Shown in pieces: positions 52,256 to 60,033 of a stretch of DNA of 64,000 nucleotides. Numbering within the stretch: the stretch's first letter is position 1; each line of letters begins with the position of its first letter. Location: positions 6,447,001 through 6,511,000 of the forward strand of contig NZ_JAZHSD010000001.1 of NCBI RefSeq assembly GCF_036924745.1, in the 5' to 3' direction. A program made the translations under genes and the position numbers. The notes under the pieces are model-generated. The model was not told the DNA's origin. It made no database searches and was given only the letters and a program-made list of their open reading frames with translations. The DNA comes from Bradyrhizobium sp. AZCC 1693. Its GTDB lineage: Bacteria; Pseudomonadota; Alphaproteobacteria; Rhizobiales; Xanthobacteraceae.

Positions 52256-52864
52256 CTAGCGCGACAGCGGATCAACCGCCGCGCGGCAGGCCGTTTGCGC
52301 CAGATGGCAGATCTCGCTGGTCGGCCGCCCCCGGTCGAGCATCGCAAACATCGGGTAGCTCGTCAGCGCAAAGATCATGTCGACGGCTTCCTCGCGCGCG
52401 CGGCGCGATGCGGTCCTCGCAGCGATGCGTCCGACCAGCATCCTGACCAGCTTTCGCCGCCGCTCGTTGCGTTCGAGCAGCGCCTCTGCAAATTCGGGAT
52501 CGGTGGCCATCGCCTCGTGGAGGCGGCCAATGGCGGCGTCCCTGGCCCAGAAGCCGCAGAAGATTTCGACCACGCGATCCAGCGCCATCAGCAGATCCGG
52601 CATCGCCATGGCATCGGCGATTTCATGAAGCCCGCCCTGGCGGGCGATGTCGTCGAACACAGCTTCGAGCAGGCCGCGCCGTGATCCGAACTGATTGTAG
52701 ACGGTAAGCCGCGTCACGCCGGCTGCCTTCGCCACTGTGTCCAGCGAAAACCGCGCGATGCTCGCATCCTCGCGCAGCAATCTTGCCGCGGCTTCGATGA
52801 CGCGATCGCGCTTCTCCGCAGCGGCTTCTGACCGCACGGAACTCACATAGGCGCGCTTTTTCAT
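52256..52864 (-). CDS. TetR/AcrR family transcriptional regulator
   Basis: 202 aa. HTH at about 20-65: RVIEAAARLLREDASIARFS and DTVAKAAGVTRLTVYNQFGS. The ligand-binding half has DLLMALDRVVEIFCGFWARD. It is divergent from the small membrane protein at 52942 and separated from it by a 15-bp palindrome, so it probably represses that gene. Its stop is adjacent to a broken DUF1330 gene, so its 3' end could have been altered by rearrangement; the C-terminus AAVDPLSR still looks sound. Confidence 0.87.
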   Translation of the reverse strand: MKKRAYVSSVRSEAAAEKRDRVIEAAARLLREDASIARFSLDTVAKAAGVTRLTVYNQFGSRRGLLEAVFDDIARQGGLHEIADAMAMPDLLMALDRVVEIFCGFWARDAAIGRLHEAMATDPEFAEALLERNERRRKLVRMLVGRIAARTASRRAREEAVDMIFALTSYPMFAMLDRGRPTSEICHLAQTACRAAVDPLSR

Positions 52865-52892
52865 TCACTCGCCATCCTTTTGACGAATTGAC

Positions 52893-52907
52893 TATACATT
52901 TTGTATA
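52893..52907. promoter_or_regulatory. Candidate TetR operator, TATACA-N3-TGTATA
   Basis: A perfect 6-bp inverted repeat in the 77-bp gap between the TetR gene and the membrane protein at 52942. It may overlap the -10 elements of both genes. The half-site TGTATA/TATACA is the same as that before the other TetR gene (1690-1713) but with the arms reversed and a 3-base spacer. Confidence 0.5.
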
Positions 52908-52941
52908 TCTAATTTCAACATCCGATCTGAAAGCGAGCCCC

Positions 52942-53346
52942 ATGCAGATCCCACTCATCATAACCCTGTCCCTTCACGTGTTGTCATCGGTGTTCTGGGC
53001 TGGATCGAGCTTTACGCTGGCGCGAACCGGTGGCGCCGGCGGCGAGCAGTTGATCGGGCCGCAGATGGGCGCCGCCGGTGTCACGATCCTGACCGGCGCC
53101 TATCTCGGACACTCCGTTCATGCCGGCATGTTCGGTACGGCCGAGCAAATCCTGGCGGTCGGGGCGCTCGCCGCGCTGGTTGCCGCCGCCGTTCAGGGCG
53201 CGATCGGCGGCCGCGCGATCCGAAGTTTACGCAACGGCAAGGCCGATGAGGCTGAGGCGCGCTCGCGCATCGCCGCGGCCCAGCGCATCGCGGCCTTGTT
53301 GCTTGCGGTGACGGCGGTGTGCATGGGCGCGGCGCGTTATGCGTGA
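52942..53346 (+). CDS. Small integral membrane protein, hypothetical
   Basis: 134 aa from the ATG at 52942 (MQIPLIITLSLHVLSSVFWA). Four hydrophobic segments, including GAAGVTILTGAYLGHSVHAG, AVGALAALVAAAVQGAIGG and IAALLLAVTAVCMGAARYA. The first helix has a conserved histidine (LHVLSSVFWAG), a feature of DUF2269/CopD-like small membrane proteins, but I do not assign a family. Probable target of the divergent TetR regulator. Its stop is 3 bp before the Bug gene stop at 53349 (convergent). Confidence 0.7.
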   Translation: MQIPLIITLSLHVLSSVFWAGSSFTLARTGGAGGEQLIGPQMGAAGVTILTGAYLGHSVHAGMFGTAEQILAVGALAALVAAAVQGAIGGRAIRSLRNGKADEAEARSRIAAAQRIAALLLAVTAVCMGAARYA

Positions 53347-53348
53347 GG

Positions 53349-54353
53349 TCAGATGCGCGGAATGCCGGCGTCGTTTATCACTTTCGACCATTTGTCGGTT
53401 TCGGAAGTTATCAGCGCGCGCATTTCCTCCGGCGTGCTGCCGCGGACCTCGCCGCCGGTCGCCGTCTCCAGCGCCGCCTTTGTGGCGGGGTCGGCCAGCA
53501 TCGACTGGATCTCCGCGTTCAGCCGTTTCACGATGTCCGGCGGCGTGCCCTTCGGAACCAGCAGCCCGGCCCAGGTCCGCACGTCGAAACCTTTGACGCC
53601 GGCTTCCTGCGCGGACGGCACGTTCGGCAGCAGCTTCGTGCGTGTGGGCGAGGTGACCGCGAGGCCGCGAATGGCGCCGCTTTCGATTTGGCCCGCGAGC
53701 AGCACGGTGGTTCCGACGATCAAGGGAACGTCTCCGGCGAGCAGAGAGGTGACGGTCAGTGAGTCACCGCGATAGGGGACGTGGACCATCCTGGTGCCCG
53801 CGGTTACGTTCAGGAGTTCGCCGGCGAGATGATGCGTGCTGCCAAAGCCGACCGAGCCGTAGCTGAGCCCGTCGGGCTTGGCTTTCGCCATCGCAATCAG
53901 GTCCGCCAGCGTCTTCGCCTGATGGTCGGCGCGAACCGCGATCACCAGCGCGTAATACACCATTGTCGATAGCATCTCGAAGCTGTCGACGGGGCTATAG
54001 GCGAGCGACTTGTACAGCGCGCCCGAGATCGCGTGCGCGCCGGTGACGAGACCGATCGTGTAACCGTCCGGCGCCGACTTCGCGACGGCGTCGGCGGCAA
54101 GGTTGCCGCCCGCGCCCGGCTTGGCTTCCACCAGCACCGGCTGTCCCAGCCGCTTGGAAAGGCCGTCGGAGACGATGCGCGCCATGGTGTCGGCGGCGCC
54201 GCCCGCCGCAAAGCCGTGCAGCAGCCGGATCGGCCTGCTCGGGTAGCTTTGCGCTGTGACGGAGGGCGCGAGGCACGCCAGACTTACCGCCGCGACTGCG
54301 ATGTAACGCAGGGCGCACCATCGTCCGCGCAGGACGTTCAACGATCGAGCCAT
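53349..54353 (-). CDS. Bug-family solute-binding protein
   Basis: 334 aa with signal segment YIAVAAVSLACLAPSVTAQ. Bug features: YPSRPIRLLHGFAAGGAADT, AKSAPDGYTIGLVTGAHAIS and MVHVPYRGDSLTVTSLLAGD. Last gene of the minus-strand run after the VOC enzyme and MDR oxidoreductase, so it may bind the substrate or a product of that pathway in the periplasm. Confidence 0.88.
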   Translation of the reverse strand: MARSLNVLRGRWCALRYIAVAAVSLACLAPSVTAQSYPSRPIRLLHGFAAGGAADTMARIVSDGLSKRLGQPVLVEAKPGAGGNLAADAVAKSAPDGYTIGLVTGAHAISGALYKSLAYSPVDSFEMLSTMVYYALVIAVRADHQAKTLADLIAMAKAKPDGLSYGSVGFGSTHHLAGELLNVTAGTRMVHVPYRGDSLTVTSLLAGDVPLIVGTTVLLAGQIESGAIRGLAVTSPTRTKLLPNVPSAQEAGVKGFDVRTWAGLLVPKGTPPDIVKRLNAEIQSMLADPATKAALETATGGEVRGSTPEEMRALITSETDKWSKVINDAGIPRI

Positions 54354-54415
54354 CTTGTTTCATCCCTGAAGTTTTGATTTTGACGTCAGTTTCGGCTGTC
54401 GGTGTCGAGGCGCGA

Positions 54416-55324
54416 TTACTTCACCCCGCGCATCGCCGGAGAAAATTCGCTGGCTTCCTTGGCCGGGCCGACGCCCCAGACGTCGCGCGGCAATCCTGCC
54501 CAGGTCTTCGGCCGCTGCGGACGATCGCGATGCCAGGGACGCGGCTCGAAATAGCCGAGCTCTTCGTCAAGCATCAGGTCCATGCTGTAGTAGAGCTCGA
54601 TCAGATGGCGATCGGGATTGTGGTGATAGACCGCCACGTTGTGACCGGGCCCGTGCCGTACCGGTCCCCAGAGAATCTGAAACCGATTGCGTCCGAGCAG
54701 ATCGCAGGCCTGATGCATGTGCGAGGCGTCGCGCAATTCGAACGCCAGATGGTGGATGCGCGCCTCTGTACCGCGTGCAAAATTCATCGCGTGATGTTCG
54801 GGGCCGCAACGCATGAAGACGAAATTCTCCTCGATCCGGTCGGAGACGCGGAAGCCGAGAACGTCGCCGAAGAATTTTGCGGCCCGTTCCGGGTCGGGCG
54901 TATAGAGCGCGACGTGACCGAGCTTGGCGACCGCCAGGCCGCGGACGGGTTCGACCGGCTTGCAGAAATCCCACCGGGAGAACAACTCGATCTGAAGCCC
55001 GTCCGGATCGTTGAAGACCAGCGTCTTCGGTATTCCGGGCGCCGTGTCGCTCCTGACCTCCGACTTGATATGGAGGCTCGCCAGCGACTTCTGCAGGTCG
55101 GAGAGATCGAGTCCGGGAGCAACCTCGTAGGCAGTGGCGGTCACGCGCGAGGCCGAGCCGTGCTCAAGAACGAGCGTGAGTTCATCGGACTCCGTTCCGA
55201 GATTAACCCGGCGGTCGTCCCGCCCGATCACGGCGAGCCCGATGATGGATCGATAGTAATCGAGTTGCGCCTCGACGTTCGGGCTCGCAAAGGTGACGTG
55301 TCGCAGTCGCTTGACCTTAATCAT
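54416..55324 (-). CDS. VOC-family extradiol dioxygenase-like protein
   Basis: 302 aa with two VOC repeats. The second carries the metal triad candidates H137 (LGHVALYTP), H191/H192 (RIHHLAFEL) and E243 (HLIELYYSM), as in type I extradiol dioxygenases such as 2,3-dihydroxybiphenyl dioxygenase. Fe(II)-dependent ring opening of a catechol-like compound is therefore plausible. Encoded 57 bp after the MDR oxidoreductase in the divergent GntR module. Confidence 0.85.
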   Translation of the reverse strand: MIKVKRLRHVTFASPNVEAQLDYYRSIIGLAVIGRDDRRVNLGTESDELTLVLEHGSASRVTATAYEVAPGLDLSDLQKSLASLHIKSEVRSDTAPGIPKTLVFNDPDGLQIELFSRWDFCKPVEPVRGLAVAKLGHVALYTPDPERAAKFFGDVLGFRVSDRIEENFVFMRCGPEHHAMNFARGTEARIHHLAFELRDASHMHQACDLLGRNRFQILWGPVRHGPGHNVAVYHHNPDRHLIELYYSMDLMLDEELGYFEPRPWHRDRPQRPKTWAGLPRDVWGVGPAKEASEFSPAMRGVK

Positions 55325-55381
55325 CTCGTGGCCCTCTTTAAATCCGGCGAACTCTCTGGCGGTGCGGGCGTCCGGCCCGTC

Positions 55382-56377
55382 TCAATCCGGTGTCATCACG
55401 ATCTTGCCGAATGCCGCACCGGAATCGAGCAGTTCATGCGCGGCGCGCACTTCCGAGAGCTTGAAGCGCTTGAAGATCGACGGGCGGATGGCGCCATCGG
55501 CGAGATAGCCGATCATCTTGCGCATGATTTCGCGCCGGCCTTCGCGGTCGTGATCATAGATGTGAAAGGAAAAGCAGCGGATCGCCGGGCAGATATCGAG
55601 ATACTTCCGCATCTCGCCCATCAGGTTTTCGGTCGGCAGACCGGCAAACGCATTGTAGGAGACGATGGTGCCCCATTTATCGAGCGCGCCGAGATAGGAA
55701 TAGAACTCCGGGCCGCAGACGTGATCGAGCACGAGGCTGACGCCGCGTCCGCCGGTCAGGGCGCGGGTGCGGACGACGACGTCCTCGTCGCGATAGAAGA
55801 TCACCTCATCTGCGCCCATGGTTCGCGCGTAGGCGGCCTTCTCCCGCGTGCTGACGGTTCCGATCACCTTCATCCCGGCGAGTTTTGCAAGCTGGACGAG
55901 GGACGTGCCGACGCCTCCGGCTGCGCCAATGACAAGGACCGAATGCGCCGGCGTGCTGGAGCCGCAATTGTTCAATAGCGCCCAGGCGACCTGATAATTG
56001 GGCAGGCAAACGGCGTCCTCGAACGCGACGTTTTCGGGCAGGGTGTGCACGGCGTCCGCGGGCGCAGAGACGTACTCGGCGTAGCAGCCGCCGCGCTGGG
56101 CAAGGTCGCGCGCGCTCAGAAGCACCCGCTGGCCGACGGAGACCTCGGTAACCTGCGAGCCTATGGCTTCGATCTCTCCGGCGAGGTCGTTGCCGGGATT
56201 GGCCGGCAGCGCCGGCATCCATTTGTAGACGCCGCTGCGGATCAGCTTGTCGGGCTGGCCGACGCCGAAGGCCCTGGCGCGGATCAGGACCTCCCGCTCG
56301 CCTGGCGCCGGTGTGGGCGCGTCGGTGTAGTCGAGCGCCTCCGGGCCTCCGGGGCGATGCACCAATACCGTTTTCAT
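55382..56377 (-). CDS. MDR-family oxidoreductase, quinone-oxidoreductase type
   Basis: 331 aa from the ATG at 56377 with GAGGGGG upstream. Medium-chain reductase fold: GNDLAGEIEAIGSQVTEVSV, GAAGGVGTSLVQLAKLAGMK (NADPH), then STREKAAYARTMGADEVI. Lacks the catalytic-zinc cysteine set of true alcohol dehydrogenases, so a zinc-independent quinone or enone reductase is more likely. First gene of the minus-strand arm; the operator-like palindrome 56413-56426 is just upstream. Confidence 0.88.
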   Translation of the reverse strand: MKTVLVHRPGGPEALDYTDAPTPAPGEREVLIRARAFGVGQPDKLIRSGVYKWMPALPANPGNDLAGEIEAIGSQVTEVSVGQRVLLSARDLAQRGGCYAEYVSAPADAVHTLPENVAFEDAVCLPNYQVAWALLNNCGSSTPAHSVLVIGAAGGVGTSLVQLAKLAGMKVIGTVSTREKAAYARTMGADEVIFYRDEDVVVRTRALTGGRGVSLVLDHVCGPEFYSYLGALDKWGTIVSYNAFAGLPTENLMGEMRKYLDICPAIRCFSFHIYDHDREGRREIMRKMIGYLADGAIRPSIFKRFKLSEVRAAHELLDSGAAFGKIVMTPD

Positions 56378-56412
56378 CCGAGCGCCCCCTCTCTTGTCTT
56401 GGTCGAATGAGC

Positions 56413-56426
56413 TATTTTCGAAAATA
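56413..56426. promoter_or_regulatory. Candidate GntR operator TATTTTCGAAAATA
   Basis: A perfect 14-bp palindrome in the divergent gap between the MDR gene and gntR. Its 12-bp core ATTTTCGAAAAT recurs at 57293-57304, after gntR and before the FAH operon. Nearby TTGCGAAAATTATTGCAA may be a second weaker site. The pairing with the GntR gene makes it a likely binding site. Confidence 0.65.
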
Positions 56427-56501
56427 TCTCCTATTGCGAAAATTATTGCAACGGGATTCTTTTGGGCTAGGATCGCGGGCTTCCAGGTGGCGAGAGAATC
56501 A

Positions 56502-57203
56502 ATGACGACGACGGCCCTCAAGGCGCGCAAGGAGTTCGGGAAGACGCTCGCCGCCGACATTGCACACCGGCTGCGCAACGAGATCGTCACCGGTCAGCTC
56601 AAGCCGGACGAATCGCTGAAATTCGACGCATTGCGGCTGTCGTTCGGCGCCAGCTTCACGACCCTGCGCGAAGCGCTGACACTGCTGGCGGCGGAAGGCC
56701 TGGTCGTCGCCGAGGAACAGCGGGGCTACAAGGTCGCGCCGGTCACACTGGATGATCTGTCGGATCTCACGCATGCGCGCATCCTGATCGAGGTCGATCT
56801 GATCCGGCGGTCCATCGAGAATGGCGATGATGACTGGGAGATAAGGGTTATTTCATCCCTGCATCGGCTCGCCAAGATCGAGGAGCGGGCGCCTGAAAAC
56901 TACCCCGTCAACGTGGAATGGAAATCGGCGCATCGCCAGTTCCATGAGGCGCTGGTGTCGGCATCGGGCTCGCCGACACTGCTTGCCGTGCGAAATTCCC
57001 TGTTCGATCGCGCCGAGCGCTACCGCAATCTGTCGGCACTGTTCCGGCCGCATCCGCGCGACAAGACCGGTGAGCACCGGGCCTTGATGCAGGCCGCCAT
57101 AAGCCGCAACGCCGAGCAGGCCTGCAGTCTGATACGCACGCACATCCAGACCACCTCCGACAACGTGGCGAAATACGCCTCCGGCGTGATCGGCTCCCGC
57201 TGA
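56502..57203 (+). CDS. GntR-family transcriptional regulator (FCD domain)
   Basis: 233 aa from the ATG at 56502. Winged helix at about 15-80: ADIAHRLRNEIVTGQLKPDE and FGASFTTLREALTLLAAEGL, then the FCD all-helical ligand domain (DLTHARILIEVDLIRRSIEN, HRQFHEALVSASGSPTLLAV and HPRDKTGEHRALMQAAISRN) with the histidine/aspartate metal ligands of that group. Probably responds to a carboxylate metabolite of the pathway and controls both the divergent MDR-VOC-Bug genes and the FAH-DUF1185 operon via the ATTTTCGAAAAT sites. Confidence 0.9.
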   Translation: MTTTALKARKEFGKTLAADIAHRLRNEIVTGQLKPDESLKFDALRLSFGASFTTLREALTLLAAEGLVVAEEQRGYKVAPVTLDDLSDLTHARILIEVDLIRRSIENGDDDWEIRVISSLHRLAKIEERAPENYPVNVEWKSAHRQFHEALVSASGSPTLLAVRNSLFDRAERYRNLSALFRPHPRDKTGEHRALMQAAISRNAEQACSLIRTHIQTTSDNVAKYASGVIGSR

Positions 57204-57292
57204 CCGCATAGCCGGCGGCCGAAGCCGGCCCATTCGCAACAAAAGCCAGGCTGAGGTCGCTCATGCAGCGAATTTCGGTTGCGTTCGTTTAA

Positions 57293-57304
57293 ATTTTCGA
57301 AAAT
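57293..57304. promoter_or_regulatory. Candidate GntR operator ATTTTCGAAAAT (second copy)
   Basis: Exact 12-bp match to the core of 56413-56426, 51 bp before the FAH gene start and 90 bp after gntR ends. The FAH-DUF1185 operon is thus probably under the same regulator. Confidence 0.65.
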
Positions 57305-57354
57305 AGTGACTTTAAGCGAAATTTAGCGCCACCAATGAGAAGGATACCTGTTGC

Positions 57355-58224
57355 ATGCGGCTGCTTTCATTTCTGAACGACGGCAGGGAGACCTGGGGAG
57401 CGATCGCCGGCGACGGCGTGGTCGATCTCGGCAGCAAACTCCCTTACGCCACGCTGCAGGACTTCATCGCCAGCGGCGATTTCCAAAAGCGCGATCATAT
57501 CGTCGCAGGCTTCAAGCCGGACCTGAAGCTGTCCGACATCAAGTACCTTCCAGTTATTCCCCGCCCCGAGAAAATCGTTTGCGCCGTGCGCAACTATCTC
57601 GACCATCATCAGGAAGCGGTTGCCTTCGGCATGCAGCGGGAGCTCACGGCGTTTCCGCCGATCTTCCTGCGGGTCTGGCGCTCTCAGGTCGGCCACAACG
57701 CACCGGTCATTCGCCCCAAAGTATCGACCCATCTGGATTGGGAGGGCGAGCTTGCCGTGATCATCGGCAAGCCGGGCCGCCATATTTCCGAGGCCGATGC
57801 CATGCAGCACGTCGCCGGTTACTCGATCTACAACGATGTCAGCGTGCGCGATTATCAGCGGCACGCCCAGCAGATCGCAGCCGGCAAAAATTTCGTCGGC
57901 ACGGGACCGTTCGGGCCCTGGATGGTGACGACGGACGAGTTGCCCGATCCGACCAAACTGAAGCTCGAGACCCGCGTCAACGGCAACGTCGTTCAGAAAT
58001 CGGACACCTCGTTCCTGATCTTCTCGATTCCGCGGCTGATCAACTACGCCTCCGAGATTTTCGACCTCATGCCGGGCGACGTCATTGCCACGGGCACGCC
58101 GGCAGGCGTCGGTTTTACGCGCAAGCCGCCGATGTTCCTGGTGCCGGGCGACGTCGTCGAAGTCGAAGTGGAGAAGATCGGCGTGCTGCGAAATCCCGTT
58201 GTCGATGAGAGCGCACAATCGTGA
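57355..58224 (+). CDS. Fumarylacetoacetate hydrolase family protein
   Basis: 289 aa. FAH-fold core: IPRPEKIVCAVRNYLDHHQE, LDWEGELAVIIGKPGRHISE (acidic metal ligands), YSIYNDVSVRDYQRHAQQ, and DLMPGDVIATGTPAGVGFTR. Such enzymes hydrolyse or isomerise beta-diketo and 2-oxo acid products of aromatic ring cleavage with Mg2+, which fits the dioxygenase-like VOC protein across the regulator. Its stop overlaps the next start (GTGA). Confidence 0.9.
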   Translation: MRLLSFLNDGRETWGAIAGDGVVDLGSKLPYATLQDFIASGDFQKRDHIVAGFKPDLKLSDIKYLPVIPRPEKIVCAVRNYLDHHQEAVAFGMQRELTAFPPIFLRVWRSQVGHNAPVIRPKVSTHLDWEGELAVIIGKPGRHISEADAMQHVAGYSIYNDVSVRDYQRHAQQIAAGKNFVGTGPFGPWMVTTDELPDPTKLKLETRVNGNVVQKSDTSFLIFSIPRLINYASEIFDLMPGDVIATGTPAGVGFTRKPPMFLVPGDVVEVEVEKIGVLRNPVVDESAQS

Positions 58225-58802
58225 CGGCTTACGATATCCGCAAGACGCAGGTCTCGATCGAGGAAATCTGGCACGAGCGCGGGCCGCGCCGGGCGCAGCC
58301 GCTCTTGGTCGGGACCGTGCTCGCCGTCATCAACAATCCCTATGCCGGCCGCTATGAGCCGGACCTGATGCCGTTTCAGGCCGATTTGCGCGATCTCGGC
58401 CGCCAACTGGCGAGAACGCTGTGCGAACGGCTGGGCGGCAAGGACACCATCGAAGCCTATGGCAAGGGCGCGATCGTCGGCGGTGACGGCGAACTCGAGC
58501 ACGGCGCGGTCTGGCACGAGGCCGGTGGTGCGGCGGTCCGCGAAGTGATCGCGCAGGCCAAGGCGATCGTTCCCGCGGCCAAGACCATTGGCGCGCTTGG
58601 CACTAGGCTGATGGTGCCGCTCGGCCACATCGAGGCGGCCTATGTCCGCAGCCATTTCGGCACCGCCGAGATGACGATCTGGGACGCGCCGCGGCGCGAC
58701 GAAATCGTGTTCGGGCTTGCCATGGCGACCGGCGGCCGCACGCACGCGCGGATCGGCGGGCTTTCGGTCGACGCGATTTCAGTGCACGACGGGCAACGAT
58801 AG
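58221..58802 (+). CDS. Amino acid synthesis family protein (DUF1185)
   Basis: 193 aa from a GTG at 58221 that overlaps the FAH stop by 4 bp. The family features are VSIEEIWHERGPRRAQPL, VLAVINNPYAGRYEPDLMPF, AYGKGAIVGGDGELEHGAVW and MVPLGHIEAAYVRSHFGTAE. Despite the family name, its reaction is not established. Tight coupling to a FAH enzyme suggests a role in the same catabolic path. Confidence 0.85.
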   Translation: MTAYDIRKTQVSIEEIWHERGPRRAQPLLVGTVLAVINNPYAGRYEPDLMPFQADLRDLGRQLARTLCERLGGKDTIEAYGKGAIVGGDGELEHGAVWHEAGGAAVREVIAQAKAIVPAAKTIGALGTRLMVPLGHIEAAYVRSHFGTAEMTIWDAPRRDEIVFGLAMATGGRTHARIGGLSVDAISVHDGQR

Positions 58803-58806
58803 CGCC

Positions 58807-60033
58807 TCAGAACTTCCTCACCAGATCCGGCGTGATCTCGCTGATCGAGCGAATACCTGATAGCGCGAGGTCGCGGTCGATCTCGGCTTTGAGCAGCGTG
58901 ATCGCGCGCTGCACGCCGGCTTCGCCGCCGGCAATCGCCGCATAGAGGAACGGACGGCCGATCCAGACGAAATGCGCGCCGAGCGCCAGCGCCTTGATCA
59001 CGTCGGTGCCGCGGCGGATGCCGCCGTCGACCATGACCGTCATGCCCTTTGCCTCCGCCGCGATCTCCGGCAGCGTACGCAGGCCCGACATCGTGTAGTC
59101 GAGCTGGCGGCCGCCATGGTTGGACAGCATCACGCCGTCGACGCCGCTCTCGCGCGCGATGCGCGCATCCGCCGGCGAGACCAGGCCCTTGACGACGAGC
59201 TTGCCTTTCCACTTCTTGCGGATCAATTCGACATGCTTCCAGGCGAGCTGGTCGCGGGCGCCGATATTGCGCATCAGGTTTTTCGCCAGCACCGGCGGGC
59301 CGCGCTTGGCATCCATGTTCTCGAAATGCGGCATGCCGTGGTTCATGATCGTGCGCGCCCAGGTGCCGAACAGCCAGTGCGGATGGGTGACCGTGTCCCA
59401 GAACACGCGCGGCGTGATCGCGAGCGGCACCTGAAAGCCGTTGCGGATGTTGTTCTCGCGGTTCGGCGGCACCGGCACATCGGCGGTGACGACGAAGGTG
59501 TCGTAGCCCGCCGCCGCCACGCGATCGACCAGCGGCTCGATCCGCTCCGGCAGGCCGGCAAGATAGGCCTGATACCACGCCGCCTGGTTGGCGGCGCGCA
59601 CATCCTCCAGTGTGATCAGCGACGACGCGCTGAGAATCATCGGCACGTTCTCGGCCTGCGCCGCCTTCGTCAGCGCGATATCGCCGCGATAGGCTGATAG
59701 CGCCGAAGAGCCCATCGGCGGAATGCCGAACGGCGAAGCATAGGTCTTGCCGAACAGGGTGGTGGTCTGGTCGCGGCCGGAGACGTCGTTGAGCACGCGC
59801 GGCACAAAACCGTATTCGTCGAGGGCCTTGCGGTTGTCGCGCATCGCCGCGTCGGTCTCGGCGCCGCCGGAGATGTAGCCGTAGAGGAATTTTGGAAGCC
59901 GGCGCCGCGCGACAGCCTCGAAATCGTCGAGCGCGAGATATTTTTGTAAAGCCCGCGGCACCGTGCTCTCGGTGCGGGTCACGGTTGCGGGCGGCGCTGT
60001 CAGGCTTGCGGATTTGTCGAGCACGTCGGGCAT
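58807..60033 (-). CDS. FMN-dependent alpha-hydroxy-acid oxidase (LldD family), second member
   Basis: 408 aa. N-terminal FLYGYISGGAETDAAMRDNR, FMN loop IPPMGSSALSAYRGDIALTK, catalytic KLVVKGLVSPADARIARESG and VMLSNHGGRQLDYTMSGLRT (histidine and arginine), and GGIRRGTDVIKALALGAHFV. Oxidises a 2-hydroxy acid. It lies 4 bp from the DUF1185 stop (convergent). Same family as 21100-22236, but with an extended N-terminus and different active-site surroundings. Confidence 0.88.
   Translation of the reverse strand: MPDVLDKSASLTAPPATVTRTESTVPRALQKYLALDDFEAVARRRLPKFLYGYISGGAETDAAMRDNRKALDEYGFVPRVLNDVSGRDQTTTLFGKTYASPFGIPPMGSSALSAYRGDIALTKAAQAENVPMILSASSLITLEDVRAANQAAWYQAYLAGLPERIEPLVDRVAAAGYDTFVVTADVPVPPNRENNIRNGFQVPLAITPRVFWDTVTHPHWLFGTWARTIMNHGMPHFENMDAKRGPPVLAKNLMRNIGARDQLAWKHVELIRKKWKGKLVVKGLVSPADARIARESGVDGVMLSNHGGRQLDYTMSGLRTLPEIAAEAKGMTVMVDGGIRRGTDVIKALALGAHFVWIGRPFLYAAIAGGEAGVQRAITLLKAEIDRDLALSGIRSISEITPDLVRKF

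Follow-up and report, generated by a model that had tools for sequence, protein, structure and literature searches.

The window analyzed here is a stretch of 64,000 nucleotides from Bradyrhizobium sp. AZCC 1693 (contig NZ_JAZHSD010000001.1, positions 6,447,001 to 6,511,000), and the subject is a module of six genes at window positions 53349-58802. Open reading frames and Pfam matches identify genes for a TctC/Bug solute-binding protein, a VOC protein and an MDR oxidoreductase on the minus strand, and genes for a GntR regulator, an FAH hydrolase and a DUF1185 protein on the plus strand (Table 1). All six proteins exceed their Pfam cut-offs, and the start of the DUF1185 gene overlaps the FAH stop codon as GTGA. 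The palindrome ATTTTCGAAAAT is present on either side of gntR, and both exact copies were found where the initial annotation had placed them; its gene families, the FAH/DUF1185 overlap and the H/H/E triad of the VOC protein (H137/H192/E243) were likewise confirmed. No TctA or TctB gene was found among the six genes; the Bug/TctC gene is an orphan.

Table 1. Features of the six-gene module, in window coordinates.
Feature	Position	Strand	Evidence
Bug/TctC solute-binding protein	53349..54353	-	Pfam TctC E=1e-72; same place in 34/34 alphaproteobacterial loci
Two-domain VOC, predicted type I extradiol dioxygenase	54416..55324	-	Pfam Glyoxalase; alignment to homoprotocatechuate 2,3-dioxygenase
MDR, quinone-oxidoreductase-like NAD(P)H reductase	55382..56377	-	Pfam ADH_N/ADH_zinc_N
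Operator 1 ATTTTCGAAAAT	56414..56425	.	Between divergent MDR and gntR genes; exact in 35/35 sequences, window included
Secondary half-site GCGAAAAT	56436..56443	+	CG step 18 bp from operator 1 centre
GntR/FCD regulator, predicted repressor, recognition helix ASFTTLREAL	56502..57203	+	Pfam GntR + FCD
Operator 2 ATTTTCGAAAAT	57293..57304	.	50 bp upstream of FAH start; exact in 35/35 sequences
FAH-family hydrolase, nearest dioxo-acid hydrolases and HpaG	57355..58224	+	Pfam FAA_hydrolase E=5e-69
DUF1185 (Pfam AA_synth, PF06684)	58221..58802	+	Pfam AA_synth; PDB 3byq E=1e-70

Genome contigs were searched with the DUF1185 protein, and the best 80 of 171 relatives were taken as loci. Thirty-four of these (L006-L039) are alphaproteobacterial, from Bradyrhizobium, Tardiphaga and one Bradyrhizobiaceae metagenome-assembled genome, with DUF1185 proteins 74-94% identical to that of the module. 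In all 34, TctC, VOC and MDR share a strand, GntR, FAH and DUF1185 lie on the opposite one, and both exact palindromes are present. The gene order expected by the initial annotation to be kept in Bradyrhizobium was therefore found throughout the Bradyrhizobiaceae loci, and its GntR-centred module with paired operators is supported. The neighbours on either side of the module were not kept across the 34 loci. Within the fetched DNA, the FMN-dependent 2-hydroxyacid dehydrogenase gene at 58807-60033 was present only in L006-L014 of L006-L085 and at a varying distance, while the TetR gene and orf152 (52256-53346) were present only in L006 and L014; these genes were rejected as parts of the module. 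The module is real, conserved and bounded at 53349-58802, the limits given in the initial annotation, and as judged from sequence comparison the six genes are an evolutionary unit.

The other 46 loci are mostly from Burkholderiales. All six components were found within 6.5 kb of the DUF1185 gene in 28 of them, and singly GntR was found in 32, FAH in 33, TctC in 34, MDR in 31 and some VOC protein in 30. Gene order and strand vary, one example being GntR-VOC-FAH-TctC-DUF1185-MDR. The VOC proteins of these loci have one domain (that of L064 is 179 amino acids long and 24% identical to the window VOC); they were found with the L064 and L040 proteins as queries and were missed by the window VOC at E 1e-8.

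Three exact copies of ATTTTCGAAAAT were found in the 7.61-Mb genome (one contig), two of them in the module, where 0.03 are expected from a simple base-composition model using the G+C content of the window. The third (C1:1989769, L001) adjoins genes unrelated to the module and fits the background level. A scan allowing up to two mismatches found 2 sites against 1.30 expected, and 36 of 100 shuffles reached 2, i.e., this control does not discriminate. Lack of enrichment elsewhere had been named in the initial annotation as a sign against its reading, and no enrichment beyond the three exact sites was seen. Both operators are invariant in 35 of 35 sequences though much of the flanking sequence has diverged, and this invariance, together with the absence of genome-wide enrichment, points to the palindrome being a local operator rather than the mark of a genome-wide regulon.

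The genus was surveyed in the same way. At least one exact site was found in 60 of 117 Bradyrhizobium genomes, and the pattern read backwards, which served as control, gave zero matches in all 117. GntR was matched in 65 genomes with E-values of 1e-40 or better. Two or more exact sites are present in every one of the 40 genomes that encode a GntR at least 66% identical to that of the module, compared to 7 of the 77 genomes without a close GntR. The site pair flanks gntR in 25 of the 40, the ones compared by eye. The 77 genomes hold 27 exact sites in total (0.35 per genome, sites of the sister clusters described below included), and sites beyond the pair amount to about 0.3 per genome with or without a close GntR (12 in 40 and 27 in 77, again with sister clusters). 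The association of close GntR with sites has a Fisher p of 1.9e-24, which overstates the evidence since the genomes are related and partly the same as the loci; for loci and genus genomes alike the counts are not independent tests.

The surroundings of the operators are partly conserved. CGAAAAT (with CG steps 18 bp apart) and ATTGCAA follow operator 1 in all 35 aligned rows, and a degenerate half-site lies 19 bp after operator 2 in most of them. The distance between operators is 827-907 bp from start to start across loci (879 bp in the window); no common phase was seen by eye across the aligned loci, which leaves looping without support from phasing. Fitting a sigma-70 promoter gave TTGCAA-16-TATGAT around operator 1 in 17 of the 35 sequences, the window not being among them; around operator 2, an 11-of-12 match was confined to L018 and L019. 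At L014:7056 and at G024:C106:4961-4982, one operator consists of palindromes that overlap in tandem; operator 2 of L014 is such an overlapping pair, and the L014 row is out of register in the alignment.

The GntR protein has both the winged helix-turn-helix and the FCD domain by Pfam, with CsiR as the nearest NCBIfam model, below cut-off. The window protein and all 34 alphaproteobacterial GntRs combine a recognition helix SF[TS]TLREAL with an exact palindrome upstream. Five sister GntRs encoded in other genomes of the genus (L091, L092, L094, L095, and L096; 46-58% identical) have the helix SFSTLREAL, and each has the palindrome upstream with at most one mismatch. The 35 GntRs from non-alphaproteobacterial loci (31 from L040-L085, of which the other 15 gave no match at E 1e-15, and those of L117-L120) have the helix SSSPLREAL in 28 cases and SSSPIREAL in 7. 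The motif TTTTCGAAAA was not found within one mismatch in any of these 35 loci, whereas TTRTGCAYAA was found exactly in 27 and with at most one mismatch in 32 (shuffled means 0.05 and 0.85); TTRTGCAYAA was in turn found in none of the 35 alphaproteobacterial sequences. This covariation of helix and operator supports the GntR protein as the reader of the palindrome, and we propose a helix code in which SF[ST]T would pair with TTTTCGAAAA and SSSP with TTRTGCAYAA. One locus is off this pattern, L093, with the helix SVTPVREAL and an exact palindrome at L093:7082-7093, near an amidohydrolase gene. That palindrome beside a different helix, and the sites in some genus genomes that lack the module, would suit binding by another regulator or palindromes that are chance or structural elements. 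Such an explanation is very improbable given at least two sites in every genome with a close GntR, the invariance of the operators and the covariation.

The metal triad of the VOC protein aligns with 1f1x (homoprotocatechuate 2,3-dioxygenase, HPCD) in the C-terminal domain, and H178, H224, and Y233 align with H200, H248, and Y257 of HPCD, which we take to be active-site residues. All six residues are present in 34 of 34 orthologues. The nearest NCBIfam model is HpaD (TIGR02295), with 129.6 bits against an equivalog cut-off of 321.4. By its residues the VOC protein is a predicted extradiol, ring-cleaving enzyme, but not HpaD. The FAH protein matches PF01557 with 232.7 bits, above the gathering score, and E130, E132, and D161, presumably the E/E/D metal ligands of the FAH superfamily, are conserved in each of the 67 loci in which FAH was matched, the remaining 13 of the 80 having no such match. 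It aligns with HpaG in the PDB at E=1e-55. Its best NCBIfam match is 2,4-didehydro-3-deoxy-L-rhamnonate hydrolase (182.8 bits, cut-off 500), followed by the C-terminal HpaG model TIGR02303 (171.7 bits, cut-off 276.4). These results support a VOC protein with type I extradiol residues and an FAH protein suited to a ring-fission product, as initially annotated. The likeness to the HpaD/HpaG homoprotocatechuate pathway consists of the nearest model for VOC, the second for FAH and the HPCD active-site residues; unlike that pathway, the module has scores far below the cut-offs, and by Pfam no gene of HpaE, HpaF, HpaH or HpaI type is among its six.

The DUF1185 protein matches PF06684 with 218.7 bits, above the gathering score, and 3byq over residues 2-193. 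E91, E93, H99, E100, and R177 are present in 80 of 80 homologues and H94 in 78 of 80. For BB2672, a DUF1185 protein, a cavity with Glu90/His93/Arg176 is described (PMC2954203), and by the 3byq alignment this Glu/His/Arg cavity is kept in the module protein as E91, H94, and R177.

In Pseudomonas mandelii 7HK4 the hcd genes encode the hydroxylase HcdA, the extradiol dioxygenase HcdB and the FAA-family hydrolase HcdC, and the ring-cleavage role of HcdB and the hydrolase role of HcdC were tested in Escherichia coli cells (PMC6222606). The mass stated for HcdC is 31.2 kDa, although one sentence assigns it to the 20-kDa band. HcdD is the DUF1185 protein of this 7-hydroxycoumarin cluster, and efforts to demonstrate an effect of HcdD were unsuccessful; HcdE is a coumarin reductase, and TgnF of Acinetobacter is called homologous to HcdD by the authors (PMC7913881). 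The module resembles hcd in combining a type I dioxygenase (HcdB), an FAA-family hydrolase (HcdC), a DUF1185 protein (HcdD) and an MDR reductase (HcdE), which in hcd lie in one inducible region (PMC6222606; PMC7913881). DUF1185 had been put forward in the initial annotation as a new member of such a pathway; HcdD precedes it (PMC7913881). Unlike hcd, the module has no flavin hydroxylase, cupin or FMN reductase, and its VOC protein has two domains; the hcd-type set of flavin hydroxylase, HcdE-type MDR and cupin with VOC, FAH, and DUF1185 is therefore not found in it. In four loci from the Azotobacter family (L117-L120), a group of cupin, HcdE-type MDR and DUF1185 genes is divergent from a group of FAH, one-domain VOC and flavin hydroxylase genes, and a GntR is present; these loci resemble the published hcd genes, 7HK4 being compared by description only, and their GntR helix and operator differ from those of the module. 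An extra gene lies between VOC and hydroxylase in L117, which we take from its sequence to belong to the aldehyde dehydrogenase family.

A flavin hydroxylase, a cupin and an HcdE-type MDR occur together with a VOC protein of about 300 amino acids in three sister clusters (L091, L092, and L096). In six Variovorax loci (L045, L050, L051, L054, L055, and L069) the six-component module is accompanied by a hydroxylase, a cupin and an HcdE-type MDR, the MDR match in L051 being split in two pieces. The sister clusters share the GntR subfamily with the module, and in those of the same genus the operator is the same as or near-identical to ATTTTCGAAAAT. The FAH proteins of L092, L096, and L094 are 78, 74, and 71% identical to the module FAH, the TctC of L092 is 78% and the MDR of L091 is 69% identical to the module counterparts, while the window VOC is 25-27% identical to two sister-cluster VOCs and the module MDR only 25-29% identical to the HcdE-type MDRs of the hcd-like and sister clusters. 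The ifc genes of Variovorax sp. V35 and the fde genes of Herbaspirillum are described as serving plant phenolic catabolism and encode a flavin hydroxylase as well as a ring-cleavage protein of the glyoxalase family (IfcB/FdeC), and ifc isoflavone genes are reported in Bradyrhizobium (PMC11069340). The sister clusters may be of the ifc type, Ifc and Fde proteins being compared by description only; unlike ifc, the module lacks an IfcA-like hydroxylase and an IfcD-like cupin. By its sequence the module is of a kind already known, most of its parts resembling hydroxycoumarin and isoflavone breakdown clusters. Searches of open-access papers, mostly of their listings, turned up no description of this version, which lacks a hydroxylase and has two copies of an operator of its own. 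The comparative context points to hydroxycoumarin- or flavonoid-type phenolics as substrate, and the lignin-derived compound suggested initially gained no specific support. At L094:5986, 6154, 7343, 12819, and 12949, one exact and four near-palindromes lie over a cluster of enoyl-CoA hydratase, acyl-CoA dehydrogenase, VOC and FAH genes, which suggests a multi-operator local regulon.

The same comparisons bear on a module for a non-aromatic compound, e.g., sugar-acid catabolism with FAH as 2,4-dioxo-sugar-acid hydrolase, MDR as dehydrogenase and VOC as isomerase or epimerase. The best NCBIfam match of FAH, the nearest model of GntR and the missing second His ligand in four aligned one-domain VOCs would be in line with this. 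We regard it as unlikely, as the six extradiol residues are conserved in all orthologues, hydroxylase, tannase-like or LigB genes occur in some of the 46 further loci, and two of the three sister clusters with an FAH 71-78% identical to that of the module have a hydroxylase. By Pfam the six genes include no hydroxylase, aldehyde dehydrogenase, hydratase or aldolase, and the nearest NCBIfam model of MDR is the PIG3 quinone oxidoreductase (204.8 bits, cut-off 296.8). Both facts would fit a scavenging or detoxifying module instead of a growth pathway, in which VOC and FAH clear toxic catechols made elsewhere in the cell and MDR clears quinones, but a binding protein and a local regulator would suit an external substrate better, and we consider this role improbable.

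We think it fairly probable that the six genes form a single module, repressed locally, for the catabolism of a plant phenolic acid of the catechol or trihydroxybenzene type, representing the ring-fission half of an hcd/ifc-type pathway with the hydroxylase half missing. Several observations weigh against this interpretation. Apart from the missing hydroxylase, the best homologues in the source genome are only 28-33% identical to the hydroxylase of a sister cluster and 30-32% to the HcdE-type reductase, and VOC and FAH score below every NCBIfam cut-off among the models listed. The four one-domain VOCs aligned from betaproteobacterial loci have a Gln at the position of His192, so a ring-cleaving role may not extend to all module versions; HcdB is presumably a small one-domain VOC, and if so, a VOC protein with this Gln can still cleave rings. 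The genomes G001 and G113 encode a sister GntR (46-47% identical) yet have no exact palindrome, L096 from G001 showing two near-matches in a scan in which only some positions were free to mismatch. In the fetched DNA of the 34 alphaproteobacterial loci, queries for hydroxylase, HcdE-type MDR and cupin gave no match at E 1e-15, and with only distant homologues in the source genome this indicates that the window holds the ring-fission half only. The pathway called complete in the initial annotation is thus not complete within the module.

We infer repression, inducer, substrate and every reaction of the module as follows. Without inducer, GntR/FCD bound to both operators would keep the two divergent arms switched off, and probably gntR as well. 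The substrate or a pathway intermediate would bind the FCD domain, and both arms, presumably co-regulated, would be expressed. The orphan Bug protein may aid uptake of a substrate that either already carries adjacent hydroxyls or is hydroxylated by an unlinked enzyme. VOC would open the ring in an extradiol manner, FAH would hydrolyze the resulting dioxo acid, and MDR would reduce a quinone or enone intermediate. DUF1185 may act on the fission product as an isomerase or hydrolase of chorismate-mutase fold or as a partner of FAH, a step assigned by association only. Repression is proposed because of the precedent of Atu1419 of Agrobacterium fabrum, an FCD GntR protein that represses a plant phenolic pathway and has paired palindromes in its cluster (PMC7797058). 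The Atu1419 palindromes are identical, short, and located over the -10 or between the -35 and -10 sequences; their sequence is ATGTATACAT and the paired sites are 190 bp apart (PMC7797058), compared to 879 bp with gntR between them in the module.

More tentatively, the two or three helix changes between SF[ST]T and SSSP may switch the operator from TTTTCGAAAA to TTRTGCAYAA, which would provide each plant-phenolic cassette with a private repressor. The module would then be a distinct, widely shared ring-fission cassette, DUF1185 a dedicated fission-product enzyme coupled to FAH, and GntR, acting as a tetramer, may bridge the two sites so that the gntR gene between them is looped out; that all of this holds together is doubtful. 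The ring-fission interpretation gives Bradyrhizobium a defined and testable unit of six genes for opening the ring of a plant phenolic, together with exact operators and a code proposed for the recognition helix. It also places the unexplained DUF1185 family beside VOC and FAH in Alpha- and Betaproteobacteria, where its chemistry can be assayed on a known fission product.

A second DUF1185 gene is present in the source genome at G000:C1:7267621-7268148 (L004, L122), encoding a protein 42% identical to that of the module; in 16 kb around it VOC, FAH, MDR, and GntR of the module gave no match. Tandem DUF1185 genes were found at G118:C2:576786-578060 (L086, L090) in the genome of L042 (Eoetvoesiella). 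The MDR matches at L026:2876-6223 and L051:8597-9582 are in two pieces, as is TctC in L026, and the genes may be broken or contain sequencing errors. Genes of the tannase/feruloyl esterase family or of LigB type adjoin the betaproteobacterial version of the module at L081:7220-8965, L049:2949-4550, and L048:9675-10526, which hints at phenolic ester or catechol substrates.

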